Positions 14,569-51,178 of a stretch of DNA of 51,178 bases are shown here, piece after piece (the first letter of the stretch is position 1; every line of letters begins with the position of its first letter). This DNA comes from a virus. Location: IMG/VR virus record IMGVR_UViG_3300010430_000066, positions 1-51,178 of that record; one strand, written 5' to 3'. The position numbers were made by a program, and so were the translations under genes. The notes beneath the pieces are model-generated. The model was not told the origin of the DNA. It saw nothing but the letters and a program-made list of their open reading frames with translations, and did no database searches.

Positions 14569-14931
14569 ATGTTTGAGAACGAATTAATAGCCGGATTTAC
14601 TTTTTATCAGCTTATGGGGTTCTTTACGATCTTCTTTGCGGTGATTAACATTGCCCTCTATTTATACGCAGCGCATATTTTATGGCGTTCACGGCACGTT
14701 ATAACTCAGGCTTTGAGGGACAAGATAATCATTGAGGCTCTATTAACCTTTACTACCGTAATGATGGGTATAGGCGCGTTTATGGATATGCCGCAAATAT
14801 GGTGGCAGGTATCGTATGTTTGCAGGGTTGGATTACTCGCAATATCCCCATTCGTTATCTATCGCCTCGTTAAAGCATGTTACACCGTAGCAAACACACA
14901 ACAGGAGACACATGGAAAAGATAGCCGCTAG
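14569..14931 (+). CDS. Membrane protein with three transmembrane segments, holin candidate
   Basis: 120 residues. Hydrophobic segments at about 8-38 (FTFYQLMGFFTIFFAVINIALYLYAAHILW), 55-72 (ALLTFTTVMMGIGAFM) and 78-100 (WWQVSYVCRVGLLAISPFVIYRLV), then a charged tail. GAGGAAAGGG lies upstream. Followed by a one-segment coiled-coil protein and a lipoprotein, this could be a holin in a lysis-like group, although the main lysis cassette is at 40.4 kb. It overlaps the next gene by 20 nt. Confidence 0.66.
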   Translation: MFENELIAGFTFYQLMGFFTIFFAVINIALYLYAAHILWRSRHVITQALRDKIIIEALLTFTTVMMGIGAFMDMPQIWWQVSYVCRVGLLAISPFVIYRLVKACYTVANTQQETHGKDSR

Positions 14932-15166
14932 TGCAGCCCTTGGGTTACAGGAAAGCGTGCTAGGAGCGGCTGTAATCCTCTTAGTGGTAATGCTCTTTAT
15001 TGTTCTAAAATTAGTTTTTCAACATATAAAGGAATCAGACAAAAGATGGTCTGAAACAGTTGATAAAAACACATCTGCGTTAAACGAAATGACCAAAGTG
15101 CATAGGGAGGGGAATGATAAGATCGCTGAAAAAATTACTCAAGCTCTCCTGCATTCTCGCGATTAG
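14912..15166 (+). CDS. One-segment membrane protein with coiled coil (i-spanin-like)
   Basis: 84 residues: a hydrophobic segment at about 15-37 (ESVLGAAVILLVVMLFIVLKLVF) followed by a charged helical region (QHIKESDKRWSETVDKNTSALNEMTKVHREGNDKIAEKITQALL) with heptad character. This is the shape of inner-membrane spanins (Rz). A small lipoprotein is encoded in another frame starting at 15114 inside it, the usual Rz/Rz1 overlap. Assignment is by architecture only. Confidence 0.58.
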   Translation: MEKIAASAALGLQESVLGAAVILLVVMLFIVLKLVFQHIKESDKRWSETVDKNTSALNEMTKVHREGNDKIAEKITQALLHSRD

Positions 15167-26345: not shown

Positions 26346-26896
26346 CTTCAACAGCACTATCAGCAATGTCATCAATTCAGCAGGGTTATGCAGCGGATGC
26401 AAATGCAAAGTCACAGCAAAATATGCTTAATGCGCGTGCGCAACAATCAGAAATGAAGGCCGTGGAAGAGGGAGCGCTTGCACAGCAACGTGCCAAGGAA
26501 TCTCGTAGGCAGGCAATGCTTAAATCTTCACGTGCGCAGGCAATTAGTGCTGCGTCTGGCGGTGGCTCTTTTGATCCTTCAATCGTAAATCTGATGGGCG
26601 ATATTGCCGCAGAGGGCGAGTATAACGCAGGCATTGATATGTATGAGGGTGATGTTGCCGCTGATGATTTAAGATACAGCGCAGAGCTTAATAGGTATGA
26701 AGGCAGAGAGGCGCGCCGTGCAGGTAAAGCCGCAAAGCGTGCAGGCTTTATGAAAGCCGCATCCACAGTGTTAAAAAGCGGCTCTTCTCTACAATCAAAA
26801 TACGGCTCTGGTGGTTCTGAAAAGATATATTGGAATGATGGTACATCAGGCATGTATAAAACCACGTCAAACACTCTACCAAGAGGATATGCATAA
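26312..26896 (+). CDS. Internal virion protein B (T7 gp14-like)
   Basis: 194 residues. A small hydrophobic/Ala-rich start (ATIAVASTALSAMSSIQQG) is followed by Ala/Gln/Glu-rich helices (NMLNARAQQSEMKAVEEGALAQQRAKESRRQAMLKSSRAQAISAASGGGSFDPSIVNLMGDIAAEGEYNAGIDMYEGDVAADDLRYSAELNRYEGREARRAGKAAKRAGFM). These features are typical of the ejected gp14 group that forms a pore in the outer membrane. It overlaps the next start by one base (TAATG). Confidence 0.85.
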   Translation: MADPITATIAVASTALSAMSSIQQGYAADANAKSQQNMLNARAQQSEMKAVEEGALAQQRAKESRRQAMLKSSRAQAISAASGGGSFDPSIVNLMGDIAAEGEYNAGIDMYEGDVAADDLRYSAELNRYEGREARRAGKAAKRAGFMKAASTVLKSGSSLQSKYGSGGSEKIYWNDGTSGMYKTTSNTLPRGYA

Positions 26897-29043
26897 TGCC
26901 GCCAAGACTCCCTGATACTGATGGCCAAAGAAAACAGGTTACAGCACGCCGCAACGTGCGCAGCTATAACACGGCTTATGGAGAGCGCGCCAATAACATT
27001 ACAGCACAGGCACTTGGTGGTGTTGCCAGTGATTTAGGCGACATTGCAAATCAGCGTATGGATGATCAAGAGGCTGAGGGTCGCCGCCGTGCGCAGGAGG
27101 CAAGAACACGCAAAGAGGCTATTGATAAAGGTGCGGTACTGAATGCGCAGGAACGTGAGAATATGGCGCAAAAAAGATTGCTCGATATGATGTACGGCAC
27201 AGATGATCAGCCCGGATTGTATCAGTCAACAGGAAGTCAGGCGCTTAATCTTGAATCTGATTTTGAGGGCAAGTGGAAGTCTTTGAGAGAGGAAATGATG
27301 AATGGGGTGGATAATCCCATTGCAAAGCAGGCTTTGGATACTTCTCTGGATTCTATGTATCAAACAACACTTGGTAATGTGAAGCGCCATAGAAACGCAG
27401 AGCAACGCTCTTATTTTGCAAATCTTAATCAGGATAAGATTGAAATTGAAAACAGTCGTGTTGGTTTTGACTGGCAGAGCAATGAATCTTTTGAAGCTGC
27501 ACTTGATAATGTGCGCGGCACAGCAAATACTCTGGCTGTTTCACAGGGTGTTCCTGCTGCTCCTGTGGTTAAAAAGCAGGTTGCGCAGCTTTATATGAGC
27601 AGAATAATGGGCATGGTAAATAGTGATGATGCAGGCACTATACTTGATGCCTATGATTTATATAACAAGGCACGCAAATCTGGTGATATATCTGATTTTG
27701 CCACGGCCATGAAAATTGAAAAATTACTTGATGGTGTTGTACCGGCCGCAGCAGCAAAGCATGCCTATGACAGCGGTATTTATAAATCCATGCAGACCGA
27801 CAAAGAGGATATCATGCGCTTTGTTGTGACTGATATTGAGGGTGGGGATGAAGTTGTACAGGAACCAAATGGCGGTATTGCAAAATTTGGGATTAATAGT
27901 GTGGCTAATCCTGATGTTGATGTGGAAAATTTAGATGAGACAGGCGCTCTTAATGTTCTTGATAAAAAATATTGGGAATATTACGGCATGGATGAAGTGC
28001 CAGAGGATATGAAGCTTATTGCTTTTGACACTGTGGTTAATCATCGTTCTGATTTTGCGCTGTATATGTCACAAAAAATTAAAGACGGCGCATCACCACA
28101 AGAGGTTTTAAATGAGCGCTTAAAGGAATATCAGCGCTTGGTTAAGGCTGATCCAGAAAAATATGCATCATCTTATAATGGATGGAAAAACAGGCTGGAA
28201 AAGCTTTCCAATCAAATGGTTGGTATTACTGAATTTGATGAGAAAAAGCTGTACGCTTCTGCATCACAGCTTGATAAACGCTATCCCGGTGCAGGTGCGG
28301 AATTGATTAAGCTTCATGAGGAGCAGCAAAAGCGTATTGCTGCTGCGGAGAAGGCTGAAAAAGATGCTGTTCAAGATGAAGTGCTTAAAATTGTTTCCGA
28401 GAATAACGGTGATTATACAAAAATTCCTGCCTCTGTGCGTGCGCGTGCCGCAGAGCTTGAGATTGATATCACTCAATATAAGGGTATATCAGATACCGAT
28501 ACGTTAAATGACCTTGAGGCTATGTCTACTGACCAGCTTTTCAATGTTGATTTGAGCGATCCTTTATATACTAAAAACCTTACATATGAGGATTTGCAAA
28601 CATATAAGCAAAAGCAGCAAGATTTGCAGAAGCCTGAGAGCAAGCAGTTGCAGGACAAGATTGATTCTACGGTGCGTTATTATTATCAGGCTGATCTTAA
28701 TAAGGATCCAGACGACAAAAAAGTTAAGGCCAATGTTGCTGCAATGAAACGCTATGTAGAGTTTGAGGCGCAAAAGCTATATGAGAAAACGCAGAGCGTT
28801 ACGGATGCCGATATTGCAAAAATGTCTGCTGACTTCTTTAAGAACAGAAAATATGATGCTGGTATCTTTTCACTGGAAGAGAAAAACATTTATGCAATGC
28901 CTGTCAGTGATATTCCAAATGACATGAGAAAAGCTATAGAGCAATCATTGCTCAATGAAGGTAAGTTGGTTACGGATGAAAGCGTAAAGCAGAGATACAT
29001 CATGCACCTGCGCAGACAGGGACAAGTGAAAAGGACTGATTAA
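26896..29043 (+). CDS. Internal virion protein with GH108 peptidoglycan hydrolase domain (gp15 position)
   Basis: 715 residues. The N-terminal 290 residues are helical. About 307-405 is a GH108 lysozyme-like domain: VVTDIEGGDE with catalytic Glu near 315, NGGIAKFGIN, and later KKYWEYYGMDEVPEDMKLIAFDTVVNHR. The rest (about 440-715) is helical and charged. Ejected internal proteins of podoviruses often carry such a domain to open the cell wall locally during DNA entry. The start overlaps the previous stop. Confidence 0.88.
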   Translation: MPPRLPDTDGQRKQVTARRNVRSYNTAYGERANNITAQALGGVASDLGDIANQRMDDQEAEGRRRAQEARTRKEAIDKGAVLNAQERENMAQKRLLDMMYGTDDQPGLYQSTGSQALNLESDFEGKWKSLREEMMNGVDNPIAKQALDTSLDSMYQTTLGNVKRHRNAEQRSYFANLNQDKIEIENSRVGFDWQSNESFEAALDNVRGTANTLAVSQGVPAAPVVKKQVAQLYMSRIMGMVNSDDAGTILDAYDLYNKARKSGDISDFATAMKIEKLLDGVVPAAAAKHAYDSGIYKSMQTDKEDIMRFVVTDIEGGDEVVQEPNGGIAKFGINSVANPDVDVENLDETGALNVLDKKYWEYYGMDEVPEDMKLIAFDTVVNHRSDFALYMSQKIKDGASPQEVLNERLKEYQRLVKADPEKYASSYNGWKNRLEKLSNQMVGITEFDEKKLYASASQLDKRYPGAGAELIKLHEEQQKRIAAAEKAEKDAVQDEVLKIVSENNGDYTKIPASVRARAAELEIDITQYKGISDTDTLNDLEAMSTDQLFNVDLSDPLYTKNLTYEDLQTYKQKQQDLQKPESKQLQDKIDSTVRYYYQADLNKDPDDKKVKANVAAMKRYVEFEAQKLYEKTQSVTDADIAKMSADFFKNRKYDAGIFSLEEKNIYAMPVSDIPNDMRKAIEQSLLNEGKLVTDESVKQRYIMHLRRQGQVKRTD

Positions 29044-32000
29044 TGAGTGATAGCTATAATGCACAATATTTCTCTGACATAGCAATAGATGAAAATCAAA
29101 GCAAAGCGCAGCAGGCAAGGCGCGTTGTTCTGTCTTCGTCTGGTGAGGATGCGGAAAAAGCAGCCAAGGCCACAAATCTTGCACAGGATTTGGGTGTGCC
29201 AAAACAAGCTGTTCAATATGATCTTGAGCATTATGAGCGTGAAAAAAACTTTAGTGCGGATTATTTTACAAAGCTTGGCAGTGATTACCCGACAATGATT
29301 GATTTTGTGTCTGATCCTGACAATGCCTCTATTGTGCATGATGACATGACCTATCTTGAGAAGACGGCCAAAACACTTGTGCAGGTTCCGGGTCAGGTCA
29401 AAGAGGGATATTATGATGTTTATCTTGGTAATTTAAGAAATAAGCAGTTATACGGGGCAGCATCAGAGCAAGAGATTGCGTATGCAAATGAGCTTTCACA
29501 GCGTGAGCGCGTTGCTGCTGAACCCACAGGCTTTATTAGTGATACGGCGCTGAAAGTCGCACAGCAAGTTCCTATACTTGGTGAGGTTGGTCTTGAAGCT
29601 GGTGCGTATTCCGTTGCAGGTGGTGCAACGGCTCTTGGTGTGGGTATGATTACCGCTCCTGTTATTCCAGAGGAGATTGTTACTGTTCCCATGGCCATGC
29701 GCGCAGGTGGTGCTTATGGTGCGTTTAATGCGTCACGCAGATTAGAAGGCGGTCTGGCCTTTGATGAGTTTCTATCCTTTAAAGATGCCGATGGTCAGCC
29801 CCTTGATGAAAATGTGGCGCGTGGTGCGGCCATGATTGTTGGTATTACCAATGGTGCGGTGGAGCTTATTCCGTTAAAGAAGCTTGCAGAAACAGTGCCG
29901 GGCATTGAGAAGCTGTCACAATATTTCACAAAGGACGGACTAAAAGAGGCGCTTAAATATCCATCAGTGCGTGAAGCATTGTCCGATATTGGCCAAAGGT
30001 ACGCAAAAGCTATTGTTGCGGAAGGCTCAACGGAAATCGCGCAGGAAGCCATGACAATGTACACGGGTGAGTTAATCAAAGCGATTGATGATGGTGATTT
30101 TGAGGCTTTATCTGTAGAGGAGCAGGTTGAAAGGCTTGCAGAGGCAGGAAAGTCAGGTATGCAGGTTGCTGCTGGTCTTGGTTTACCCGGTAGTGCTGTG
30201 CGTGCTGGTAAGGTTATTGCGGAGCAGACAGGGCAACCAAACCCGATGAACGTGGCCGAATATGTCCGAAACGCACGGGACACTTTGGCCAATTCTGACG
30301 GAAAACTTATGACTCGTTCCAAGCCTAAAATGCGTGAATACATTGACGGCTTAACAGAGGGGCAAACCTTTTATCTTGATGCTGGGGCAACATCTGCGCT
30401 CTATCAAAAAATGTCAGAGGAGCAAAAGCAGCAAATCATAAATGCCATTCCTGATTTTGAGGCTTCTCTTGATGGTGCTGTGCGCACAAAGGATTCTTTT
30501 GAAATCCCTGCCGCGGATTTTTTCACATACATACAGCCTTTTGATGAGGAAGGCGTGCTTGATGAGTATGTGACGCTATCGCCTGAGCATTATTCCGCTG
30601 CTGATTTAAATGAGATTGATGAAATGATCAGTGACCTTATGGATGAGGCACAGGCACTTGAGGAGCAGCAGACAGATGGTGATGTTGTTGAAAACAATAT
30701 TTATCAGCAGCTCCTGCAAAATTTTAACGGTCGTAAAGCGCCAAGTGGCCGCGTAGATGTTGCGCGCCTTATGTCACAAAACCCGCGTGCATTCTATGAA
30801 ACAATGCTTGAGCGCTCCAATCAGGATCCGCGTGTAAAGGAAATCCTTGATCGTTTGGTGCGTGATATTGTTATACGAAGGCAAGTGCCAAACCTTGAGC
30901 GCGTATTGAAAATTGATGAGCTTGATTTAACACTTGATCGTGTGCGTGATCGCGCTGCAAGGCGTGCCGCTGCGCAGGAATCAGGGCAATCACCTGATAT
31001 GTTCGGACGTGTAAAAACCAAAAAGAAAAAGGGTAAGGCAAAGCCGACTCCTGTTATTTCATGGCTTGGTAAGCGTGTTGGTCTTCGTCCCGGTGGCGCA
31101 GCAGCACGTGAGCTTGCGGCCATGGATATTACACCAAAGTCACATCCGAGATTATTTAAAACAAAGGGTATTGGCTCTGTGGATAATATTCCTGCCGCAG
31201 AGTTTAATGAGGAAATAGGAAATCAGGTTGGCTTAATCGCGCAGGAAGATGAAAACGGCTATGTTGATCAGGGTTGGTTGCTTGAACAAATGCGCAATGA
31301 GTCTTTTGGTGAGGGTGCGCTGACGCAAGAGCAAAGAGACGCAGAGGCAGAGCAGGCGTATCTTGATGATATTGAGCAGGTCATGCAAATGGTCGGTGTT
31401 GATTTGGATATGCCAAATGCAGATATTAAGGAGCAGCTTCAAAGATATCAGGATGATTTGGGGCAGGTTGTAGAGCAAGAGTCTCAACAGGAAATTGTTA
31501 ATAAGGCAACAGATACGCCACAGCAGGCTGAACAGCTTACGGAAAAAGTGGAAAAAGTTAAGCAAGAAGAGGCCACACAGGAGCAGTTTGAGCCTGAGAA
31601 AAAGCCAGAGCCTATCCAGCCTGATAAACCTATTGAGGATTTTGGTGAGGAAATATCTGGCGCACGCAAACATGAATATACTGAAAAGTTATCAAAAGCA
31701 TTACCAGAAGATGTAAAAGATTTTACTTTATCAAAAATCTTTCCTGAGCCTGATTATGATAAAATGATTGCTGATGGTGTTGATGTACGCATACTTGCTG
31801 CTGTTAAGGCTATGCGTGATAGAATACCATCAAAGCCGCGTAAAAAATGGAAGCTTGAGCGTTGGGCTGATGAGTTAAAAATTATGCGTGCTTTTTCTAT
31901 AGACTTGATTGATGGGTCGGTATCAATTGATGATTTATTAAAAAAAATGGATTCACCAGAGTTTAAAACTCTTTCCGATATCAAGGAAGACATAGAGCTA

Positions 32001-35000
32001 TATATTGAGCTTGGGTATCCAACATTTAAAAATGCCAAAGGCTATGCCGTTGCTGTAGCCAAGAGTTTTATTGATGAGCAAGGCAATAAACGTGATGAGC
32101 CAGTTGATCAGTGGATGATTGTGAAGGATAGAAGGCTTATTGGCGGCTATAGTGATCGTAATCGTGCCATTGATGTTTTGCGTGAAAAGCTTTCTCTGCA
32201 ACCAGAAACAGGTGGAAAACGCAAAACAAAGCTTGATATATGGCAGGTCAGGACTACTGGTGAGATTGTTATTGGTAAAAAGGTTGGTAGTGGTAAGTAT
32301 ATTGATTTGAAAACAGGGTTTTCAGACGTTAAAGAGGCTAGAAAATATCTCAATGATAATGAGGATGCTTTGCTTGTTATGCTTGAGAGTAAGAAAAAAA
32401 TTGCTCCTGTGCGTAAAGCAGAGAATGCGCCGCGTGAGGGGGTGGATAGGCGTATGGGTGAAAACATTACACCAGAAAAGTTCGCACGTGAATTTGGTTT
32501 CAGGGGTGTGCAGTTTGGTAATTATGTTGAGCAATACAAAAGAGCGCAGGATTTGAACGAGTCCTATGATGCTTTGCTTGATATGGCTGATATCATTGGT
32601 GTAGAGGGTCGCGCGCTATCTCTTAACGGTACGCTTGGTCTTGCATTTGGTGCGCGCGGTAAAGGCGCAGCAGGCAGTGGTGGTATTGTTGCTGCTGCAC
32701 ATTATGAGCGCGGCCATGTGGTAATAAATCTTACTAAAAAATCAGGGGCAGGATCGCTTGGCCATGAATGGTGGCATGCTCTTGATAATTACTTTGGTAA
32801 AAAGAATGATAACGGTGATTATCTATCTGAAAAACCAAAGCAGCGTAAGATTGGTAAGAATTACAAGAAAATTGAGGATGCGGATCAGCCTGTGCGTAAA
32901 GAGGTTGTTGATGCATTTAAAGGCGTGATTGATGCCATTAATAAAACTGACATGCGTAAGCGTGCCACAGAGCTAGATAAGAAGCGCACAAAGACATACT
33001 GGACTACTGACCGTGAAATGACAGCGCGCGCATTTGAGTCATATTTAATATACAAGGCTGATCAAAAGGGTGAGCGTAATGATTATCTTGCAAATATTGT
33101 AAAAGAGGACACGTGGAAAGCCTTGATGGAGGGTGAGGACGCATTTCCTTATCTACAGCCGGAAGAGATATCAAACATCGTTGCTCCTGCATTTGATAAC
33201 CTTTTTGATACATTACAAACGCGCGAGACTGATCAAGGTGTGGAGTTTTATCAGCGTGAGGGCGCACAGCCTGCTGACTTTTTGCAATCCGCACTCTTGC
33301 GCGCTGCTCAAAACATCAATCAGCCTAAAGGCACTGGCGATCAAATGCTCTCGATGCTGCGCAAAATGCCCGGCATAAAAGAGGAGGAAATTGCATGGAC
33401 AGGACTTGATGAATTTTTGAAGGGCAAGAAGACAGTCACGAAAGATCAGGTTATATCCTATCTGGATGATAATCAGGTGCAGATTGAAGAGGTTGAGTTA
33501 AACAGTAGCACGGTTTCTGACGAAGATAGCATTCAGTTTGCTTATGAAGATATTAGTGAAAAAATAGATGAGGCAGAAGTTGACGACAAGAAATTGCAGG
33601 CGCTTTTAAAAACTTGGTATTACGATCCAACAAGGGAAAATTGGTCAGCACTAAAAGACAGGCTTGATGGTTTTGGCATTGGTGTTGATTACGATAACTC
33701 TTCATTTTTCTCTGATATAGATGAAACAAAATTCTCACAATATACCCTGCCCGGTGGCGAGAACTACCGTGAGGTATTGCTGACGTTGCCAAACGATGCA
33801 GAAATAGAAGTTCGTCAGGCAGAGGGTAAATACAGGTTGTGGGATAAATCTAAAAAAGATTGGGTTCGCACAAGTGGTGGTAAGCTTATATCTGGATTTG
33901 ATACAAAAGATGAGGCTAATGAGCAAGCGAGAATGCTTGGTGATAATGGCTATAACAGAGACGTGAGAAAGCAGGACTTTACATCGTCACATTATTCACA
34001 TGCTAATATCCTTGCCCACATGCGCCTTAATGACCGCACCGATGCTGATGGTAAGCGTGTTCTGTTCATTGAGGAAATACAATCCGATTGGCATCAGGCT
34101 GGGCGTAAGAAAGGGTATAAGGGCGGGCTAGCAGCTCTGAAAGAAAAAGCTGATATAGCCAAACAGAATTTTGAAAAGTGGCTCAAGGAAAATCCAGACA
34201 AAACGGCTGATGAGTGGAGAGAGAAAAACCCAGAAATGAGTGCAGATTTTGCCGCATATTCGAGCGCAGAGTATAATGAGGCTGGGCGAGTTCCTGATGC
34301 GCCGTTCAAGAAAAACTGGCATGAGATGGCATTCAGGCGCGTTGCACAGATGGCCGCGCAGCAGGGATATGATGCTGTATCATGGACACCGGGCGAGGTG
34401 CAGAATGATCGTTATGATCTGAGAAAGCAAGTCAAGGCTATCGCTTATTGGAAAAATGATATTTACCCAGATAAATACGATATTCGTGTTGATATTATTG
34501 ACTCTATGGATAGTAAACATTTTAGAGAAAAAACAATAGACGATATTGAGGATATTGTTGGAAAAGAAATTGCCCAAAAAATATTAAAAGAAGAAGGTGA
34601 AAAAGTTGATGATAGAATTACAGAAATTTCAGGGGATGGCCTAAAAATAGGCGGCGAAGGCATGAAAGGGTTTTACGATAAAATCCTCAAGAAATATGTT
34701 GAAAAGTTTGGGAAGAAATATGGCGCAAAGGTTGGTGTTACAAGCGTTAATCTTGGAACACAGCAAAAAGAAACACCTTCATGGACAATAGCAGAAACCG
34801 AAACTGTTAATAAACTGGAAGGCAGTCAAGATGTATGGCAAATGCCTATCACCGACAAAATGCGTGAGAGTGCTGTAAAGGGTTTTGAGCTTTTCCAAAA
34901 CGAAGGCGATGCGCGTGGTTCTATTGAGTTTACTCCATCCGGGCAATCCATCATCCGTTTATTTGAGAAAGAAGATTTATCTACATTCATGCATGAGGCA

Positions 35001-38000
35001 GGGCATTTATACTGGCGCGCCATGTCTGAGATTGCAGCGCTTGATAATGCGCCTGAACAGGTTGCACAGGATGTGGCCACAGTGCGTAAATGGGTTGGCG
35101 CAAAAGACGGCGCAACACTGACCGTTGAGCAAGAGGAAAAGATTGCTGATGCGTTTCTGGAATATATCCGTAAGGGTGATGCGCCGAGTGTTGATCTTCA
35201 ATCTGCATTCCAGCGCATGAAGGGCTGGCTTATGCGTATTTATCGCGGTGTGCGTGATACATTACCAAAGATTAATAAAGATATATCTGATGTATTTGAT
35301 CGTATGCTGGCCACGGATGATGCCATTGAGCGTGTACGCACGGAGCCTGCATTTAAAGTGGATGAGGCTATATTGGCGTTATTGCCAAAAGCACAGGCTG
35401 ATCGTATGCGTAAGAAGTATGAAAAGACGCTGGAGCATGCCAAAGAGCGGATCCTGAAAAAAGCAATCAGGCAGGCAGAGGCAAAGGCTACAAAGACATA
35501 TAAGAAAGAGCGCGGTGCTTTGCAGGAGCGCATTACCAAAGAGGTGGAGCAGGAGCGCACCTATGCGGCCATGGATAGAATACTGGAAGAAGGTGGCCTA
35601 TCACGCAAAGGTGTTACGCAGGTGCATGGTAAAGAGGCTGTGCCGTATTTATCGGGGCATGGTGGCCTTGTTAAGAAGGGTGGTCAGCATCCAGATGTGT
35701 ATGCAGACATTTTAGGCTATAGAAATGGCTATGAAATGCTCATGGATTTTATGAATGCTGAGAAAAAGAAAGACCGCATAACGCGCCTGACTGATCAAGC
35801 CATGCTTGAGCGCTATGGAGATATGCTTAATGATGGCTCAATTGACGATGAAGCTATGCGTTTATATCATAACAGGCTACGCAAAGAGGTTATTGCATTG
35901 GAAATGAAGGCTCTTGCAGAGCTTGGCAGTATCCCTGCTCCTGATCCTGATGGCATTGAGGCCGCGGCAATTAAGCTTGTTGGTGATTTAAGTGTTTCCA
36001 AGTTGCAGCCCGGCCGGTATTTACGTGCGGAAAATCGTGCATATTTCGATTACGGCAAAGCGCTGGGGCAGGGTAATTATGCGCGCGCGGCACGCGCAAA
36101 GGCGCAACAGTTGCTTAATCATCACATGTATAAAATGACTGCAGATGCACGTGAAACGGTTGAGAAAAGTGTTAAGGGGTGGAGGCGCTTTGGTCGTCCA
36201 GATAAAAAGATTGCCAAGGCAAAGTCAATTAACATTGATTATGTATATGCAATCAGGGCAATTCTTGCCAGACATGATATTGGGCGTAGTGATTTTGCTT
36301 TTCAGGATTGGTTTGAGCAGTTGCGCGCGGAATCTCCTGACAGTGCGCAGGCGCTTGCGCAATTAATCAACATGAATACAGAGGGTGCAAAGCCTTACAA
36401 AGATTTGAGCGTTGATGAGTTTATGGGCTTAAAGGATTCAATTGAGGGCTTAATTGAGCTTGGCCGCGACACGTTAAAGATTGAGCTTGATGGAAAGCGC
36501 CTTACAGCACGTGAGGCAGCGCAGGCCGCAGCCGATACAATTTACGACAACAACAAAGAACGTGACATGTCAAAACATTATGAGGGCATGATCGACAAAG
36601 CACGTGAGCTTGTTGCCGGGTTTGATTCTTCCGTTACAAGAATGGAGTTTATCCTAAAGGCGATGGAAGGCAATGAGTTAAACGGAACGCTTGCGCAAAT
36701 GTTTATGAATCCGTTGGCCAAGGCTGATGCGCGTGAGCAAGAAATGCACAAAGAGATTGCAGAAAAATTCCGTGAAATCATTGAGAAAAATGGTGGTGTT
36801 GGCAATCGTTGGAAACAGAAAGTCTATGACCAGCGTCTTGATGGCGCGTTTACTGTCAGAAATATTGTGACCATTGCTCTTAATATGGGTAATGAGGGCA
36901 ATCTTGAAAAGCTTCTTGATGGTTATAGCTGGGAATATGCTGATGTTAAGGATTTAGTTGAGCGTTACCTGACAAAAGAAGACATGGACACTGTACAAGA
37001 GATATGGGATTTGATGGAAACCCTGCGTCCTGATTTGCAGCGTGTGCATAAAGAGGTTACAGGATTCCCGATGGAAATTGTGAAGGCGCAGCCTCTTGAG
37101 ACAAAATGGGGAACATACAAGGGCGGTTATTTTCCTGTGGTTTATGATATTAAGCGCTCTGATATCGGCGCGCGCAATGCGGAGGATGTTTCCGTATTTG
37201 AAAGCAATTTCACTATACCGAGTGTTGGTAAGGGCATGACAAAGAGCAGGTCAACTTTTTCTGCACCTGTAGACCTTGATTTTGAATCAATCGTTTCCGG
37301 GCATTTTGCAAAAACCATTCACCTCATCACACATGGGACTGCAGTCAAAGATTTAAACCGCGTTATTATGAATCCTATATTTAAAGATGCGATTATTAAA
37401 ACGGCTGGTGTGCAGGTATATAATCAGTTTAAGCCATGGTTACAGGCCGTTGCTGCTAATCGCGTGTATGATAATCCTGTAAAAGCGCAGGACAAGGTTG
37501 TGCGGCATTTGCGCGTGGCCACAACAAATCTGTTCCTTGGTTTTTCCGTCACCACAGGTATTAAACAGACACTTGGTATGACGGCAACATATGCCGCGGT
37601 TCTGCGTGGTGAGGTATCGCAAAAGAATTTCTTTAAATCATTGCGCCAGTATTATACTGCGCCTGCATCTATGTCTAAGTTTGTGATGGAAAATTCTGCG
37701 GAAATGCAGGGGCGCATCAGAAAAATGGATGCAAATGTGGCCATGGTTATGTCCAGTGTTTCAAAATTGAACACGACCTATGACAAGGTGATGTATGCAG
37801 GTATGGCCTTTAACAGTTATTCACAGATGTACACTGTGGACATGCCTACGTGGATTGCCGGGTATAATCAAGCTATGGATAAGTATAACGGCAATCATGA
37901 ACAGGCCGTGAATTATGCGGATGCTCTTGTGCGTCAAACACAGGGTAGTGGTGCGGTTAAAGACTTGTCAGTTTTCCAGCGCGGTACAGAGACAGAAAAA

Positions 38001-38504
38001 GCAGCGTGGGCAATGTTTGGTACTTATATCATTGGTGTGCTTTATCCAAAACTGAGAGAGCTTGGTATTGATACATCACGCGGTAATGTGGCACGTAGTG
38101 CAATGTCTCTTACGTCTCTGCTCTTTGTTCCTGCAATTCTTGAGGGGCTGATGAGTGACCCACCGGAAGACGATGAGGGATTGCTTGAGTGGACATTGCT
38201 TAAATCCATGCTGTATGGCGCGTCTTCATTACCGATTATCGGCGGTATTGTGCAGGGGTATGCAGGTGATTTTGGTTATTCCATGTCAGCTATTGAATCT
38301 CCTATTAACATGATGATTAACAATGTTAAGAGCGATGATCCTGAAAAGTTTACAAAGGGGCTGGTTGTTGGCCTTGGTATTGCTACAAAGCTTCCTGTGT
38401 ATAAGCCGTATCAGGCGCTTGATGAGTTGATTGATCAGGCTTCTGGTCAGGAGGATGTAAATATTCCAGAGCTTTTACAGGTGGTGAAGGATAGTGATAG
38501 ATAG
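29043..38504 (+). CDS. Giant polyvalent internal virion protein (LPD5/LPD1 metallopeptidase-type, 3153 aa)
   Basis: 3153 residues; occupies the place of T7 gp16 at the end of the ejection-protein series. A Gly/Ala-rich hydrophobic stretch lies at about 180-235. An LPD5-like region begins near 870 (ISGARKHEYTEKL); an LPD1-like region near 1148-1300 contains FRGVQFGNY, SLNGTLGLAFGARG and GSLGHEWWHALDNYF with zinc motif H1241-E-x-x-H1245. A third block around 1676 has IEEIQSDWHQAGR. A second zinc motif H1984-EAG-H1988 follows in TFMHEAGHLYWRA. Long coiled regions and a C-terminal hydrophobic part ending LPVYKPYQAL resemble PLxRFG-type phage proteins. Likely ejected into the host with the DNA; anti-defence effector functions are inferred from the polyvalent-protein family. 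Confidence 0.9.
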   Translation: MSDSYNAQYFSDIAIDENQSKAQQARRVVLSSSGEDAEKAAKATNLAQDLGVPKQAVQYDLEHYEREKNFSADYFTKLGSDYPTMIDFVSDPDNASIVHDDMTYLEKTAKTLVQVPGQVKEGYYDVYLGNLRNKQLYGAASEQEIAYANELSQRERVAAEPTGFISDTALKVAQQVPILGEVGLEAGAYSVAGGATALGVGMITAPVIPEEIVTVPMAMRAGGAYGAFNASRRLEGGLAFDEFLSFKDADGQPLDENVARGAAMIVGITNGAVELIPLKKLAETVPGIEKLSQYFTKDGLKEALKYPSVREALSDIGQRYAKAIVAEGSTEIAQEAMTMYTGELIKAIDDGDFEALSVEEQVERLAEAGKSGMQVAAGLGLPGSAVRAGKVIAEQTGQPNPMNVAEYVRNARDTLANSDGKLMTRSKPKMREYIDGLTEGQTFYLDAGATSALYQKMSEEQKQQIINAIPDFEASLDGAVRTKDSFEIPAADFFTYIQPFDEEGVLDEYVTLSPEHYSAADLNEIDEMISDLMDEAQALEEQQTDGDVVENNIYQQLLQNFNGRKAPSGRVDVARLMSQNPRAFYETMLERSNQDPRVKEILDRLVRDIVIRRQVPNLERVLKIDELDLTLDRVRDRAARRAAAQESGQSPDMFGRVKTKKKKGKAKPTPVISWLGKRVGLRPGGAAARELAAMDITPKSHPRLFKTKGIGSVDNIPAAEFNEEIGNQVGLIAQEDENGYVDQGWLLEQMRNESFGEGALTQEQRDAEAEQAYLDDIEQVMQMVGVDLDMPNADIKEQLQRYQDDLGQVVEQESQQEIVNKATDTPQQAEQLTEKVEKVKQEEATQEQFEPEKKPEPIQPDKPIEDFGEEISGARKHEYTEKLSKALPEDVKDFTLSKIFPEPDYDKMIADGVDVRILAAVKAMRDRIPSKPRKKWKLERWADELKIMRAFSIDLIDGSVSIDDLLKKMDSPEFKTLSDIKEDIELYIELGYPTFKNAKGYAVAVAKSFIDEQGNKRDEPVDQWMIVKDRRLIGGYSDRNRAIDVLREKLSLQPETGGKRKTKLDIWQVRTTGEIVIGKKVGSGKYIDLKTGFSDVKEARKYLNDNEDALLVMLESKKKIAPVRKAENAPREGVDRRMGENITPEKFAREFGFRGVQFGNYVEQYKRAQDLNESYDALLDMADIIGVEGRALSLNGTLGLAFGARGKGAAGSGGIVAAAHYERGHVVINLTKKSGAGSLGHEWWHALDNYFGKKNDNGDYLSEKPKQRKIGKNYKKIEDADQPVRKEVVDAFKGVIDAINKTDMRKRATELDKKRTKTYWTTDREMTARAFESYLIYKADQKGERNDYLANIVKEDTWKALMEGEDAFPYLQPEEISNIVAPAFDNLFDTLQTRETDQGVEFYQREGAQPADFLQSALLRAAQNINQPKGTGDQMLSMLRKMPGIKEEEIAWTGLDEFLKGKKTVTKDQVISYLDDNQVQIEEVELNSSTVSDEDSIQFAYEDISEKIDEAEVDDKKLQALLKTWYYDPTRENWSALKDRLDGFGIGVDYDNSSFFSDIDETKFSQYTLPGGENYREVLLTLPNDAEIEVRQAEGKYRLWDKSKKDWVRTSGGKLISGFDTKDEANEQARMLGDNGYNRDVRKQDFTSSHYSHANILAHMRLNDRTDADGKRVLFIEEIQSDWHQAGRKKGYKGGLAALKEKADIAKQNFEKWLKENPDKTADEWREKNPEMSADFAAYSSAEYNEAGRVPDAPFKKNWHEMAFRRVAQMAAQQGYDAVSWTPGEVQNDRYDLRKQVKAIAYWKNDIYPDKYDIRVDIIDSMDSKHFREKTIDDIEDIVGKEIAQKILKEEGEKVDDRITEISGDGLKIGGEGMKGFYDKILKKYVEKFGKKYGAKVGVTSVNLGTQQKETPSWTIAETETVNKLEGSQDVWQMPITDKMRESAVKGFELFQNEGDARGSIEFTPSGQSIIRLFEKEDLSTFMHEAGHLYWRAMSEIAALDNAPEQVAQDVATVRKWVGAKDGATLTVEQEEKIADAFLEYIRKGDAPSVDLQSAFQRMKGWLMRIYRGVRDTLPKINKDISDVFDRMLATDDAIERVRTEPAFKVDEAILALLPKAQADRMRKKYEKTLEHAKERILKKAIRQAEAKATKTYKKERGALQERITKEVEQERTYAAMDRILEEGGLSRKGVTQVHGKEAVPYLSGHGGLVKKGGQHPDVYADILGYRNGYEMLMDFMNAEKKKDRITRLTDQAMLERYGDMLNDGSIDDEAMRLYHNRLRKEVIALEMKALAELGSIPAPDPDGIEAAAIKLVGDLSVSKLQPGRYLRAENRAYFDYGKALGQGNYARAARAKAQQLLNHHMYKMTADARETVEKSVKGWRRFGRPDKKIAKAKSINIDYVYAIRAILARHDIGRSDFAFQDWFEQLRAESPDSAQALAQLINMNTEGAKPYKDLSVDEFMGLKDSIEGLIELGRDTLKIELDGKRLTAREAAQAAADTIYDNNKERDMSKHYEGMIDKARELVAGFDSSVTRMEFILKAMEGNELNGTLAQMFMNPLAKADAREQEMHKEIAEKFREIIEKNGGVGNRWKQKVYDQRLDGAFTVRNIVTIALNMGNEGNLEKLLDGYSWEYADVKDLVERYLTKEDMDTVQEIWDLMETLRPDLQRVHKEVTGFPMEIVKAQPLETKWGTYKGGYFPVVYDIKRSDIGARNAEDVSVFESNFTIPSVGKGMTKSRSTFSAPVDLDFESIVSGHFAKTIHLITHGTAVKDLNRVIMNPIFKDAIIKTAGVQVYNQFKPWLQAVAANRVYDNPVKAQDKVVRHLRVATTNLFLGFSVTTGIKQTLGMTATYAAVLRGEVSQKNFFKSLRQYYTAPASMSKFVMENSAEMQGRIRKMDANVAMVMSSVSKLNTTYDKVMYAGMAFNSYSQMYTVDMPTWIAGYNQAMDKYNGNHEQAVNYADALVRQTQGSGAVKDLSVFQRGTETEKAAWAMFGTYIIGVLYPKLRELGIDTSRGNVARSAMSLTSLLFVPAILEGLMSDPPEDDEGLLEWTLLKSMLYGASSLPIIGGIVQGYAGDFGYSMSAIESPINMMINNVKSDDPEKFTKGLVVGLGIATKLPVYKPYQALDELIDQASGQEDVNIPELLQVVKDSDR

Positions 38505-39787: not shown

Positions 39788-40363
39788 TTGGAATATTTAT
39801 TACTTTTTGTTTTTAGTATTGCAGGCGCAGCGATATCACGTCTGCATGGTGGAGGGTTTATAAAAGGCGTGCCAAAGGTGGTGCGCAATCTTTTGTGGTG
39901 CATCCCTCTGGCGTGTGCTGCTGCTTATATATTTTATGATAATGGCCATGACTGGTTAGGAATTGTATCTGCTGCTATGGCTACGGCAGGATTTTGCTTT
40001 CTTGGTAAAACAACGGGTCATGGTGGTGGCATGGATTTGGGTTCTTATCCTGATGTTCCGGGTGATTCTCGCGAGATTGAAAAACTTGAGTATTTAATTT
40101 ATCCGCTATATGGAAAAATTAATGTGTACTGGTATGATGCTCTATTGCTTGCAATAACAGGGCTTGCGGGGGTTTCTGGTGTGGTGTTGGCTTTATGTTT
40201 TACACAGCCTCTTGCTGCACTAATAGTGGGTATATCTGGTATTATGAAATCACTTGCATATATAATCGGATGGAAAGTGTCTGATCGTTATGCCACAGAG
40301 ATTGGTGAAACACTGACAGGATTATTTGCATATGCAGCTGTTGCATGTGTTTTATGGCTATAA
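39788..40363 (+). CDS. Polytopic membrane protein preceding the lysis genes
   Basis: 191 residues from a TTG at 39788, with AGGGTGG upstream. Hydrophobic segments near 1-17, 33-50, 57-72, 113-140, 142-160 and 176-191. A His/Gly-rich loop HGGGFIKGVPKVVRN and TTGHGGGMDLGSYPD are conserved-looking features of a small phage membrane protein family often found near lysis genes. A holin or antiholin role is possible but unproven. Confidence 0.72.
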   Translation: MEYLLLFVFSIAGAAISRLHGGGFIKGVPKVVRNLLWCIPLACAAAYIFYDNGHDWLGIVSAAMATAGFCFLGKTTGHGGGMDLGSYPDVPGDSREIEKLEYLIYPLYGKINVYWYDALLLAITGLAGVSGVVLALCFTQPLAALIVGISGIMKSLAYIIGWKVSDRYATEIGETLTGLFAYAAVACVLWL

Positions 40364-40378: not shown

Positions 40379-41155
40379 ATGTTAAAAATCTTGGAAGTTA
40401 TTAAGAAACATGAATCAGGAAATGATTACAACGTGGTTTATGGTGGTGGTAAAATACCGCTTACTAAAATGACCATTGGCGATGTTCTGGATATGCAGGA
40501 CGGTCTTGAGAAGGCGGGTGTTAAATCAACTGCGGCCGGAGCATATCAGATTATTAATGATACGCTTATGGGTCTTTTAAAGTTTGATCAATTTGACAGA
40601 GACATGTTGTTTGATGAAAAAACACAGGATGACCTTGCGCTTGCTCTTTTGCAGGGGCGTGGTTTTCTTGATTTTTTGCAGGGTAATAAGAATATTTCTG
40701 AAACAGTTAACAATTTGAGTATGGAATGGGCTTCACTGCCGAAAGATGCAGGCGGCAAGAGCTATTATGATGGTGATGGATTAAACAAGGCACACGCCAC
40801 ATATGATGAGGTTGTGCAGGCCTTAATTCACGATAAAGAAACCCTAATGGAGGATGCTGATATGGCAAACGAAGAAATAGAAAAAGTAAAGGCGCAGGCT
40901 TCTGAGCCTGTGAAATCTGGAAACACAACGTCTGAATATGTGTTGAATGTTGTGGTTACTATTTTGGCGGCAATCGGAATGGGTCTTATGGCCGTTGCGG
41001 AGCATTTTGGTTTAAGCATATCACCTGAAACCATTATTGGTGGCATTGTTATGCTTGGCGGTATGGCCATGAAATATACGCATGATCGTACAGGCCTTAA
41101 AATCGAAGATGCAAAGCTAAAAGCAGAGCTTGTGCGCATTATTAATAAAGAATAA
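40379..41155 (+). CDS. Lambda R-type lytic transglycosylase fused to a two-segment holin-like domain
   Basis: 258 residues. About 1-155 match lambda endolysin R: EVIKKHESGNDY with likely catalytic Glu12, KSTAAGAYQI (R has STGAGRYQL), DLALALLQGRG and MEWASLP (R has IWASLP). It cleaves glycan strands of peptidoglycan. There is no signal peptide at the N-terminus. The C-terminal 80 residues hold two membrane helices (about 185-208 and 213-231) joined by a short turn and a charged tail, like a class II holin. A strong internal ribosome site before Met162 suggests that this part is also made separately. Confidence 0.88.
   Translation: MLKILEVIKKHESGNDYNVVYGGGKIPLTKMTIGDVLDMQDGLEKAGVKSTAAGAYQIINDTLMGLLKFDQFDRDMLFDEKTQDDLALALLQGRGFLDFLQGNKNISETVNNLSMEWASLPKDAGGKSYYDGDGLNKAHATYDEVVQALIHDKETLMEDADMANEEIEKVKAQASEPVKSGNTTSEYVLNVVVTILAAIGMGLMAVAEHFGLSISPETIIGGIVMLGGMAMKYTHDRTGLKIEDAKLKAELVRIINKE
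40862..41155 (+). CDS. Putative internally initiated holin (97 aa, nested in frame)
   Basis: The ATG at 40862 is codon 162 of the transglycosylase gene and in its frame. GGAGG at 40849-40853 lies eight bases upstream, an ideal spacing. The product starts MANEEIEKVKA, then two membrane helices (YVLNVVVTILAAIGMGLMAVA and TIIGGIVMLGGMAM) and ends with a charged tail, the pattern of a two-segment holin. The same coding region would yield a fused membrane-tethered enzyme and a free holin. In-frame nested translation is an inference from the ribosome site. Confidence 0.62.
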   Translation: MANEEIEKVKAQASEPVKSGNTTSEYVLNVVVTILAAIGMGLMAVAEHFGLSISPETIIGGIVMLGGMAMKYTHDRTGLKIEDAKLKAELVRIINKE

Positions 41156-41159
41156 TGCC

Positions 41160-41369
41160 ATGATAACAGGATCCACACTTACATTTATTGGTGGCCTTAT
41201 CGGGGTTGCGCTTGCAATCCTCAAGGCCATTAATTGGATACAGGGGAAGAAAAATGCAGAATTACGTCAAGCCGTTGAGAAAGCGCGCAGGCTTTCTAAC
41301 CGTTCTCGCACTAAGCGTGGTGCTATTATCAAGCTGCGCAAATGGCGTGAAAAGCAATCTGATCGTTAG
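41160..41369 (+). CDS. Inner-membrane spanin-like protein (Rz-like)
   Basis: 69 residues from the ATG at 41160, just after the transglycosylase stop. One N-terminal hydrophobic segment (LTFIGGLIGVALAILKAINWI), then a basic helical region (KKNAELRQAVEKARRLSNRSRTKRGAIIKLRKWREK). A lipoprotein gene overlaps it in another frame, as in the lambda Rz/Rz1 arrangement. The periplasmic part is short for an i-spanin, so partner contact may depend on the longer lipoprotein. Confidence 0.75.
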   Translation: MITGSTLTFIGGLIGVALAILKAINWIQGKKNAELRQAVEKARRLSNRSRTKRGAIIKLRKWREKQSDR

Positions 41370-41535
41370 TAATGAATTTCTTGAGGAAGTAGAGCAGGAA
41401 ATCAGCGCGCCAGTGCCGTGCATTGTTGATGAGCAAAACCTGCCTATTGCAGAGTTTGAGCAGGTATATCCAGCAATGATGCAGGTTTTGTTTGATTGGA
41501 TTGCTCAGAATGAGCCGGAAGATAATCAGCAATAA
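41254..41535 (+). CDS. Outer-membrane lipoprotein spanin (Rz1-like)
   Basis: 93 residues from the ATG at 41254, preceded by GGGGAAGAAAA and overlapping the Rz-like gene by 116 nt in another frame. The signal sequence MQNYVKPLRKRAGFLTVLALSVVLLSSC has lipobox L-S-S-C (Cys28). The mature part is acidic with PVPCIVDEQNLPIAEFEQVYPAMMQVLFDWIAQ, longer than lambda Rz1. It would join the outer membrane to the inner-membrane spanin for the last step of lysis. Confidence 0.8.
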   Translation: MQNYVKPLRKRAGFLTVLALSVVLLSSCANGVKSNLIVSNEFLEEVEQEISAPVPCIVDEQNLPIAEFEQVYPAMMQVLFDWIAQNEPEDNQQ

Positions 41536-44524: not shown

Positions 44525-44570
44525 TTTCGTTGCATAAAATCAGGCTATTTGTTTTGACGTTTTTTGTCAA
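44525..44570 (-). promoter_or_regulatory. Promoter B with palindromic operator and conserved transcript start
   Basis: On the minus strand TTGACAAAAAACGTCAA (44570-44554) is TTGAC-N7-GTCAA with a perfect -35 at its start. 17 bp later is TAGCCT, a weak -10, and then TGCAACGAAAGAAGG (44535-44521). It overlaps the last codons of the upstream PcfJ-like gene, so the palindrome is kept within coding sequence. It drives 44512 and the RecE-like group. Confidence 0.65.
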
Positions 44571-46074
44571 GGGTGTTGTTGCATAATTCTGTAATGTATG
44601 CAATGAAATCGCCAAGACCCTCATCGTATGATGCGGTTGAGTTTTTATAGCCGCGCGTTTGATCGTGTTGCCACATAATACCTTCTGGTGCTATTCTTCC
44701 GTCTGATTGAGTGTGAAATACAAGGCCTGAAATATCGTGAGGAGAAAAAGGTTTACGCTTTTCAATTCCACATGTCATGCCTTTTTCCGGCAATTCATTA
44801 CCAGTGATATGGTACGCCATGTAATGCCCTGCTTTTATTCTTCTGCGATATGATGAAAAGATGCAGTGAGACATGGATTCACCCTCATGTTTAAGGTGAT
44901 AATCATTGTTTATAAGAACAGCCTTGTATCCATCCCTTTCAATTTCTTTCGGGTATTCAGATGTATATGGTTCTTTTGTAAGAGGTTCTTTTTTGTGCGC
45001 AAAATCAACGCCTAACCAAGCAGGATTAAGTAGCTCTATGTGTCGCTGCCTCTCATAATCATGCACATTGCTCCTTATTTGGTCTAAACAGTTTCCCGAT
45101 AGAATTTCTTCTAGCTGCCTTCTTGATATTGCATGCTGCATAATATCGCTAATATCACTTATCAGGTTACAAAAAATCTCATAATTAATAGCAAAGATGT
45201 TGGGGTTATCTTGATGCTCATTGTATAGATTATCAAAAAACTGTTTCATCCATAAGCGCACATAGCTTCTTTGAATTTCTGGCCGCTGTAATAAATCAAA
45301 TAGCCTGTGGTTTCGTTCCTGCATTAAGCAATCAGGAAATTTAATATTCATATATCCGCTTGGTAAATTGCTGATGTGATATAAATAAATGTGAGGCTTT
45401 GAACATAAAAACTTCCAATGTCTTTTAGAGATATTATAATGCTGGCGAAACAGCGATATACATTCTTTTGCAGTCTCTTTTGAATAGCTGTAAGTCATAT
45501 CTTGATTCATAATAGCATGCCAAAACATAGGCCATACGGAATCATCAGCCATGTCATTTAGGTTTACGTCTCTACCAATGCCATGTGAAATATTGCGTAT
45601 AAATATTCTATTAGCGGTTCTTTGATCTGATTGAATATCATAATTGATAAAGTATTCAGCGCAGGTTGAGATTGCTTCATCTACCTTGCTGTTATGTGGT
45701 GTTTTTATACGGCACAGATTTTGGTTATGGTAAAAACTATGCTCAATTTCTATGGATATTAATCCTTGTGAAATTGTTTCTGAGTCAATTTCTGCGGTGC
45801 TAATTTGAGATATGTCTGTCTGCACAACAGGAATATTCATCCCGCCACGTCTTATAATCATTTTAGGCTCTATATCTCCTCTTATGGCTCTTTCTCTGAC
45901 GTACTGCCGTCTTGCATCCATTCTTGCGGCCTGATGTATAAAGGTATTGTTATGCTCACGGTCGTGAAATATCGAGCCTATATCTGGTATGATTGGCATG
46001 CGCTGTCTCTCCTCTTCAAGTTGTCTTATTTGGCCTATGTATAGCGGGTTTATGGATTGAAATGGTGGAGCCAT
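44545..46074 (-). CDS. PcfJ-like protein
   Basis: 509 residues, AT-rich and rich in Ile, Asn and His. The C-terminal third contains KHEGESMSHCIFSSYRRRIKAGHYMAYHI, which matches the PcfJ signature (small residue, HC, aromatic-Y, G, strand), a family first noted in conjugative elements and now seen in phages as part of polyvalent proteins. The N-terminal 330 residues are unrecognised, helical, with FWHAIMNQDMTYSYSKETAKECISLFRQHY. It starts eight bases after the repressor gene stop, so the two are a cotranslated pair. Molecular role unknown. Confidence 0.72.
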   Translation of the reverse strand: MAPPFQSINPLYIGQIRQLEEERQRMPIIPDIGSIFHDREHNNTFIHQAARMDARRQYVRERAIRGDIEPKMIIRRGGMNIPVVQTDISQISTAEIDSETISQGLISIEIEHSFYHNQNLCRIKTPHNSKVDEAISTCAEYFINYDIQSDQRTANRIFIRNISHGIGRDVNLNDMADDSVWPMFWHAIMNQDMTYSYSKETAKECISLFRQHYNISKRHWKFLCSKPHIYLYHISNLPSGYMNIKFPDCLMQERNHRLFDLLQRPEIQRSYVRLWMKQFFDNLYNEHQDNPNIFAINYEIFCNLISDISDIMQHAISRRQLEEILSGNCLDQIRSNVHDYERQRHIELLNPAWLGVDFAHKKEPLTKEPYTSEYPKEIERDGYKAVLINNDYHLKHEGESMSHCIFSSYRRRIKAGHYMAYHITGNELPEKGMTCGIEKRKPFSPHDISGLVFHTQSDGRIAPEGIMWQHDQTRGYKNSTASYDEGLGDFIAYITELCNNTLDKKRQNK

Positions 46075-46082
46075 GCCTTGCT

Positions 46083-46445
46083 TTATCCTTTAATTATTTT
46101 GACAGCGGCTTTAAGTTTTTTGCAATCCTCAAGCTCTATCTCTTTGCATATTTTAAGAATAGTAACGGTGCGCTCATCAAGAGAAAGGTATTGAGTATCA
46201 CCCTCCTGCGGTGGAAATAAATCCTCAAACCGGCATTTAAAAATTTTGGTCACAGAGTAAAGTTTGGAAGAAGAAACCCTATTTATGCCTTTCTCGTATT
46301 TCTGCACCTGCTGAAAAGTAACACCGATAAGCTCACCTAAAACCTCCTGTGACATGTCATTTGCAAGCCGTAACTTTTTTATTCTGTCCCCAACATATTT
46401 ATCAATATAATCTGCTGTGCCTTTTTTATTTGTTGCTGTTTTCAT
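46083..46445 (-). CDS. XRE-family repressor
   Basis: 120 residues with CAGGAAAAATACT upstream. The helix-turn-helix is YVGDRIKKLRLANDMSQEVLGELIGVTFQQVQKYEKGINRVSSSKLYSVTKIF; the FQQVQKYEKG-NR wording is characteristic of alphaproteobacterial regulators. The C-terminal 45 residues are helical. No protease domain, so it is not LexA/CI-type. It is the best candidate for binding the TTGAC-N7-GTCAA palindromes, or it may only control its own pair with the PcfJ-like gene. Confidence 0.88.
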   Translation of the reverse strand: MKTATNKKGTADYIDKYVGDRIKKLRLANDMSQEVLGELIGVTFQQVQKYEKGINRVSSSKLYSVTKIFKCRFEDLFPPQEGDTQYLSLDERTVTILKICKEIELEDCKKLKAAVKIIKG

Positions 46446-50553: not shown

Positions 50554-51178
50554 GAAAATTAAGGGTTCTTGATCTTTTTAGTGGAATAGGAGGTTTTAGC
50601 CTTGGGCTTGAAAGGGCAGGGATGGAAACAGTTGCTTTCTGTGAAATAGATGAATTTTGTCAAAAAGTTTTAAAAAAAAATTGGCCTGATGTTCCGATTT
50701 TCAACGATGTGAGGAGTTTAGATTATGACGGATCAATTGACGTTATTTGCGGTGGATACCCTTGTCAGCCATTCAGTCTTGCCGGGAACAGAAAAGGCGC
50801 GGAAGATGACCGCCACCTCTGGTCAGCTATGTTTGGCCTCATCCAAAAGCACAGGCCGCGTTGGGTTATTGGAGAAAATGTTGCTGGACACATTAGCATG
50901 GGGATCGACAGTGTGCTTACTGACTTGGAGAGTGAGTTTTACACCACAAGGGCATTTATTATTCCGGCTTGTGCCGTCAACGCCCCGCACAGAAGAGATA
51001 GAGTATGGATTGTGGCCAACGCCAAGAGCAAACAAGGTACATCCACCAATAACAAACGAGAACAGGGAACAGCTTGCCAATCGGAACAAAGCGAATCTAG
51101 AGGAAGAAATAGCAGGATATTGCGGGGATGCGATTGGGAATTTGAACCCGCAGTGGGTAGAGTGGTTAATGGGGTTCC
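50550..51178 (+). CDS. DNA (cytosine-5) methyltransferase, N-terminal part (continues at base 1)
   Basis: The TTG at 50550 overlaps the previous TGA, with GGAG about eight bases upstream. Motif I RVLDLFSGIGGFSLGLERAG binds AdoMet; GGYPCQPFS is the catalytic motif IV with its Cys near residue 75; GENVAGH is motif VI; HRRDRVWIVANA is motif VIII. The window ends within the target-recognition region, and the gene finishes at 238. The full protein of about 247 residues is short for the family because the recognition region is only about 50 residues. It should make 5-methylcytosine in phage DNA. Confidence 0.92.
   Translation, partial: MRKLRVLDLFSGIGGFSLGLERAGMETVAFCEIDEFCQKVLKKNWPDVPIFNDVRSLDYDGSIDVICGGYPCQPFSLAGNRKGAEDDRHLWSAMFGLIQKHRPRWVIGENVAGHISMGIDSVLTDLESEFYTTRAFIIPACAVNAPHRRDRVWIVANAKSKQGTSTNNKREQGTACQSEQSESRGRNSRILRGCDWEFEPAVGRVVNGV
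51056..51178. repeat. Terminal direct repeat, right copy (contig closure)
   Basis: Identical to bases 1-123; see the left copy. When counting genome length, one copy should be removed. Confidence 0.93.

Follow-up and report, generated by a model that had tools for sequence, protein, structure and literature searches.

The window, that is the whole stretch of viral DNA analysed here (51,178 nucleotides; IMG/VR record IMGVR_UViG_3300010430_000066), carries an exact direct terminal repeat of 124 bp (positions 1–124 and 51055–51178) and probably represents the whole genome, about 51.05 kb in length. A reading frame on its plus strand (40379–41155), open over 258 codons, encodes a predicted endolysin of the lambda R type with a C-terminal membrane hairpin, in the order enzyme, linker and two membrane helices. 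The catalytic domain (residues 1–151, 40379–40831) contains the conserved Glu12 and the motifs SxAAGxYQ, EWASLP and YYxGDGLN. In the family alignment E12 is kept in at least 90 % of the 37 sequences, and S50, A52 and Q57 are invariant. Pfam returned no match for the protein, but the PHROG 90 endolysin profile matches its catalytic part (E 2.7e-22) and the family profile retrieves the lambda lysozyme structures 1AM7 and 3D3D from the PDB (hmmsearch, E 1e-5). Furthermore, 1AM7 is the top Foldseek match of the AF2 model of the catalytic domain (pLDDT 95; probability 1.00, E 5.6e-4), whereas the full-length model gave helix-driven matches only. The catalytic part is thus a lambda-lysozyme-like fold, in agreement with a sequence-only reading of the locus, which had placed a lambda R-type transglycosylase at the N-terminus, and the enzyme is predicted to act as an R-type lytic transglycosylase.

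The same reading had noticed two membrane helices after the enzyme, and the full-length AF2 model (pLDDT 87) contains them as helices of membrane length at residues 184–209 (40928–41005) and 216–238 (41024–41092), followed by a terminal helix (244–257). Since the loop between them holds no lysine or arginine and the C-terminal side holds six, a topology with both ends in the cytoplasm (N-in/C-in) is favoured. The last 97 residues, beginning with Met162, had been likened to a class II holin. The likeness holds for the small size with two helices, for the predicted N-in/C-in topology and for the charged C-terminus; it does not extend to homology, as the 97 residues have no Pfam match and no PHROG match better than E 0.36, and thus show no sequence relation to a known holin family. 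A search of phages with the C-terminal part up to E 10 gave chance matches, the best with E 3, and IMG/VR and plasmids yielded no relative. The function of the hairpin is therefore argued from architecture, not from homology.

Directly 3′ of the endolysin gene lies an overlapping spanin-like pair (41160–41535, plus strand), for which family matches are weak. Judged by the shape of the sequences it is a probable spanin pair, composed of an i-spanin of 69 aa with an N-terminal membrane helix (41160–41369) and, in another frame, an o-spanin of 93 aa with the lipobox LLSSC (41254–41535). On the 5′ side a multi-helix membrane protein of 191 aa (39788–40363, plus strand) is an alternative holin candidate; a weakly similar protein is found at the same place in the nearest phage relative with a usable contig (G001, TerL 72 % identical). 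Two further candidates are located 5′ of TerL, a small membrane protein with three helices (14569–14931) and, just before TerL, a protein of 84 aa with one strong membrane helix, a coiled coil and the Shine-Dalgarno (SD) sequence AGGAG (14912–15166). In other parts of the genome there are a polyvalent protein of 3153 aa with LPD22, LPD5 and LPD1 domains (29043–38504), a virion-region protein of 715 aa with a second endolysin-like stretch at residues 293–497 (26896–29043; PHROG 315), and a protein of 508 aa on the minus strand (44545–46074) with a sub-threshold PcfJ-like match, adjoining a Cro/C1-type HTH gene (46083–46445).

Initiation signals at Met162

A GGAGG exactly eight bases before the in-frame Met162, leaving 97 residues, had led the sequence-only reading to propose a gene for two products. 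The signal is present as claimed (40849–40853, plus strand, 8 nt before the ATG at 40862) and would open a putative internal frame (40862–41155, plus strand) predicted to encode the two-helix hairpin. Met162 is the only one among 257 internal in-frame ATGs of the phage's genes with GGAGG at a spacing of 4–10 nt, about 0.9 such cases being expected genome-wide from base composition, and its SD duplex ranks second of the 257. The surrounding mRNA is unusually open, at −4.8 kcal/mol compared with −14.8 on average (standard deviation 4.0) for internal ATGs, and equal openness is reached by just 0.6 % of these; the mRNA around the gene's own start is structured (−13.0 kcal/mol). By a simplified initiation energy Met162 takes first place among 504 internal in-frame start codons and beats 94 % of the 32 gene starts, which makes some short protein likely, provided that the prediction is correct. 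The own start is weak on the same measure, 12.8 kcal/mol worse than Met162, and may gain from coupling to the preceding gene, which ends 15 nt before it.

When codons were resampled with the protein fixed, an equally strong site appeared in 14 % of the variants, and synonymous shuffles within the gene gave an equal or better SD in 33 %. The strength of the site therefore stems largely from the encoded M-E-D and the E/K-rich linker, and the figures do not demonstrate selection at the nucleotide level. Met162 is a predicted initiation site that is strong in absolute terms and plausibly capable of use, and the putative internal product of 97 residues is plausible but unproven.

These signals bear most directly on the proposal of a dual-product lysis gene, in which Met162 yields a free class-II-like holin of 97 residues that would join the hairpins of the tethered enzyme in forming lesions. 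We regard this as possible but doubtful. In its favour speak the GGAGG at 8-nt spacing, the open mRNA and the first rank of the site among the internal starts in the genome. Against it stand the share of shuffles (14–33 %) in which the encoded peptide by itself accounts for the site, the AF2 model, where Met162 sits within one continuous helix (142–174), and the missing homology of the 97 residues to any holin. The claim of one gene for an enzyme and a free holin thus holds as far as the architecture and the strong predicted internal start are concerned; the ribosome binding site is the evidence for a short product that acts as a holin. A fixed ratio of enzyme to holin, which had also been proposed, would be speculation. 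As a whole, the sequence-only reading is partly supported and the observation from which it started is confirmed.

An explanation of another kind would be that two separate genes appear as one owing to an indel from sequencing or assembly, or to a lost stop. A TGA in another frame (40858–40860) just 5′ of the ATG resembles a typical gene junction. However, that frame also has a stop at 40834–40836, which confines an indel to about 22 nt; moreover, the fused architecture is common among relatives and the 124-bp terminal repeats are as expected of a complete genome. An artefact is thus very improbable.

Relatives of the gene and origin of the hairpin

Homologous enzymes with C-terminal membrane helices exist in Autographiviridae of Rhizobium and Stappia, those of the phages Palo and Paso being labelled by their depositors as transmembrane-domain-containing SAR endolysin transglycosylases. 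The same architecture is found in many alphaproteobacterial prophages as well as in IMG/VR contigs. A C-terminal membrane tail is present in 71 of the 163 genes analysed, the window gene included; as simple hydropathy served to call the membrane segments, the count may be off for borderline helices. A search of IMG/VR (query P0001) for close relatives of the gene found none.

Strong in-frame starts in the linker are not enriched among the 71 tailed genes (25 versus 21.6 expected from synonymous shuffles at −8 kcal/mol). In 12 of them the linker holds the best internal start, against 18.8 expected by length. In none of the six phage homologues, each inspected individually, is there an SD-preceded ATG in the linker. 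Isolated strong GTG sites occur in the L036 and L030 groups and are missing from the sisters L114 and L039. By computed initiation, neither M4Lys (phage BSPM4) nor LysAP (Acidovorax phage AP1) has an internal start comparable to Met162. A start at the same place is thus not conserved among the related endolysins on hand, which are diverged. Homologues with the membrane part and without a conserved internal start had been named as an outcome that would speak against two products, and at the family level this is what is seen, in membrane parts too diverged to align.

Many unfused relatives offer a clue to the origin of the hairpin, as they often have a separate two-helix gene of about 60–110 codons between endolysin and spanins, representatives of which match Phage_holin_10 or PHROG holin families. 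Counted over spanin-bearing cassettes in clusters at 70 % identity, with o-spanin ORFs excluded, such a gene accompanies 1 of 10 hairpin-tailed versus 10 of 16 other cassettes (Fisher p 0.014 at the cluster level). The tailed architecture is thus tied to the loss of the separate gene, which suggests that the tails are captured holins, and this mutual exclusion also favours the free holin from Met162. The hairpin probably arose by fusion of the endolysin gene with the small two-helix gene usually found next downstream, as judged from gene order.

The endolysin genes of L010, L011, L013 and L014 end in TTGGAGG(G/C)TTAA, and a separate one-helix coiled-coil protein starts directly after this, in frame, with ATG or GTG; its ribosome binding site thus lies in the last codons of the endolysin, and readthrough of the stop would yield a fusion. 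Relative to the GDGLN motif the position of this GGAGG agrees with that of the window within about 2 codons, and the site at Met162 lies 6–7 codons beyond the point where the catalytic domain ends in unfused relatives. Because GGAGG is found at the same place in these four, a fusion by stop loss in which the ribosome binding site was retained would be a reasonable origin. Both the location of the site and the use of the corresponding GGAGG in L010, L013 and L014 for a separate membrane protein just after the endolysin stop count for a dual product. The membrane protein of L010, however, is not homologous to the window hairpin and has a single helix.

The tested member of the L079 group pairs its fused endolysin with a separate LydA-type holin (PF16083, E 1.3e-17), which counts against the hairpin being the holin. 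It counts for a Met162 product that acts as a modulator, either antiholin-like or as a spacer diluting the tethered enzymes, the holin then being the product of 14912–15166, 14569–14931 or 39788–40363. Such a role, for which the presence of these three other small membrane proteins also speaks, appears improbable to us. A one-helix coiled-coil protein that precedes the endolysin of G001 is weakly similar to the product of 14912–15166, but this pairwise similarity (E 1e-4) could come from shared composition. The endolysin of G001 at this place is of the unrelated M15 type (PHROG 465, E 1e-37). In the nearest relative phage, the region L094:2045-3945 keeps the tail-fibre N-terminus, a membrane protein and spanin-like genes together with an unrelated M15-type endolysin, a modular exchange of the lysis enzyme.

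Proposed lysis mechanism and known systems

The explanation that we favour, with modest confidence, is a membrane-tethered (tail-anchored) R-type endolysin that works through its full-length protein, as M4Lys and LysAP do; the need for a short holin is not established. In this model the lambda-R-type transglycosylase would pass through a helical linker into the two-helix hairpin, predicted N-in/C-in, which would insert the full-length protein and keep the enzyme attached to the inner membrane, facing the cytoplasm. Once the hairpin or another holin has breached the membrane, the enzyme could reach the peptidoglycan, and the spanins would complete lysis; the Met162 site may give some short protein alongside. 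Anchoring, timing, membrane damage by the hairpin and the role in lysis are what we infer for a protein whose fold, architecture and position next to the spanins are observed. The presence of other holin candidates in the phage supports the tethered endolysin, and the Met162 start, on paper far stronger than the gene's own, weakens it.

Endolysins anchored at the C-terminus are poorly understood, in particular the passage of their N-terminal enzyme across the membrane; the gene described here adds a clear lambda-R-type case. With slightly more reserve than for the dual product as such, we consider that, in a phage with a Gram-negative host, a tethered transglycosylase and a free Met162 hairpin holin could come from one frame and co-oligomerise via their shared hairpin. 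Should the internal product exist, a single mRNA frame would couple the doses of endolysin and holin, and two-polypeptide endolysins, surveyed so far for Gram-positive hosts only, would be known from Gram-negative phages as well.

For phages of Gram-positive hosts it is proven that one endolysin gene can give two polypeptides (PMC9430671), a precedent for the dual product; the survey left out Gram-negative phages as unlikely (PMC9430671). CTP1L, LysP7951 and others have an in-frame internal start between the endolysin domains (PMC9430671, PMC4777826), and residue 162 likewise offers an in-frame start beyond the catalytic domain, at which initiation is predicted to be strong. Their short product differs from that proposed for the window in carrying a domain for wall binding or a second catalytic domain in place of a membrane hairpin. 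A TpeE-type fusion of Clostridium sporogenes combines holin and endolysin in one polypeptide; its holin is N-terminal with one helix, the host is Gram-positive and no internal start is described (PMC9527704).

The Rhizobium phages Palo, Paso and RHEph02 (Autographiviridae) have a homologous catalytic domain and a C-terminal two-helix region, and in Palo overlapping i- and o-spanin genes directly 3′ of the endolysin as in the window. The enzymes are 31–33 % identical overall to that of the window, their membrane part is not alignable and an internal start with SD is absent. Since these homologues share the architecture without the internal start, they support the tethered endolysin. Their annotators also propose an N-terminal SAR, whereas the window protein has none by inspection.

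An N-terminal enzyme with C-terminal membrane helices is already known from the endolysins of Chi-like phages (Siskin, Enc34 ORF39 and M4Lys), with two helices in Siskin (PMC6498227) and Enc34 ORF39 (PMC8943055), as in the window protein. For the Siskin endolysin, with its predicted N-in/C-in topology, a new class was proposed (PMC6498227), and the Enc34 cassette ends in overlapping spanins (PMC8943055). The contrast with separate genes usually seen, drawn in the sequence-only reading, therefore overstated the novelty, all the more as C-terminal-hairpin endolysins are common in Rhizobiales prophages. What is shared is the architecture and not the family, as the catalytic domain of Siskin, Enc34 and M4Lys is PHA02564 and that of the window lambda-lysozyme-like; moreover, these phages have a separate holin gene directly upstream of the endolysin.

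Enc34 ORF39 is toxic at full length, but its catalytic domain by itself is not (PMC8943055). The endolysin LysAP comes from the phage AP1, whose TerL is the closest phage TerL to that of the window; LysAP differs from the window protein in its GH24 enzyme, its one helix and a separate holin, but it also carries its membrane helix at the C-terminus, where it is needed for lysis and localisation (PMC8879335). M4Lys causes lysis as a full-length protein and loses this activity without its membrane part, which alone is only bacteriostatic (PMC7143992). Because both M4Lys and LysAP lyse as full-length proteins and need their membrane part, they support the tethered endolysin also for the window.
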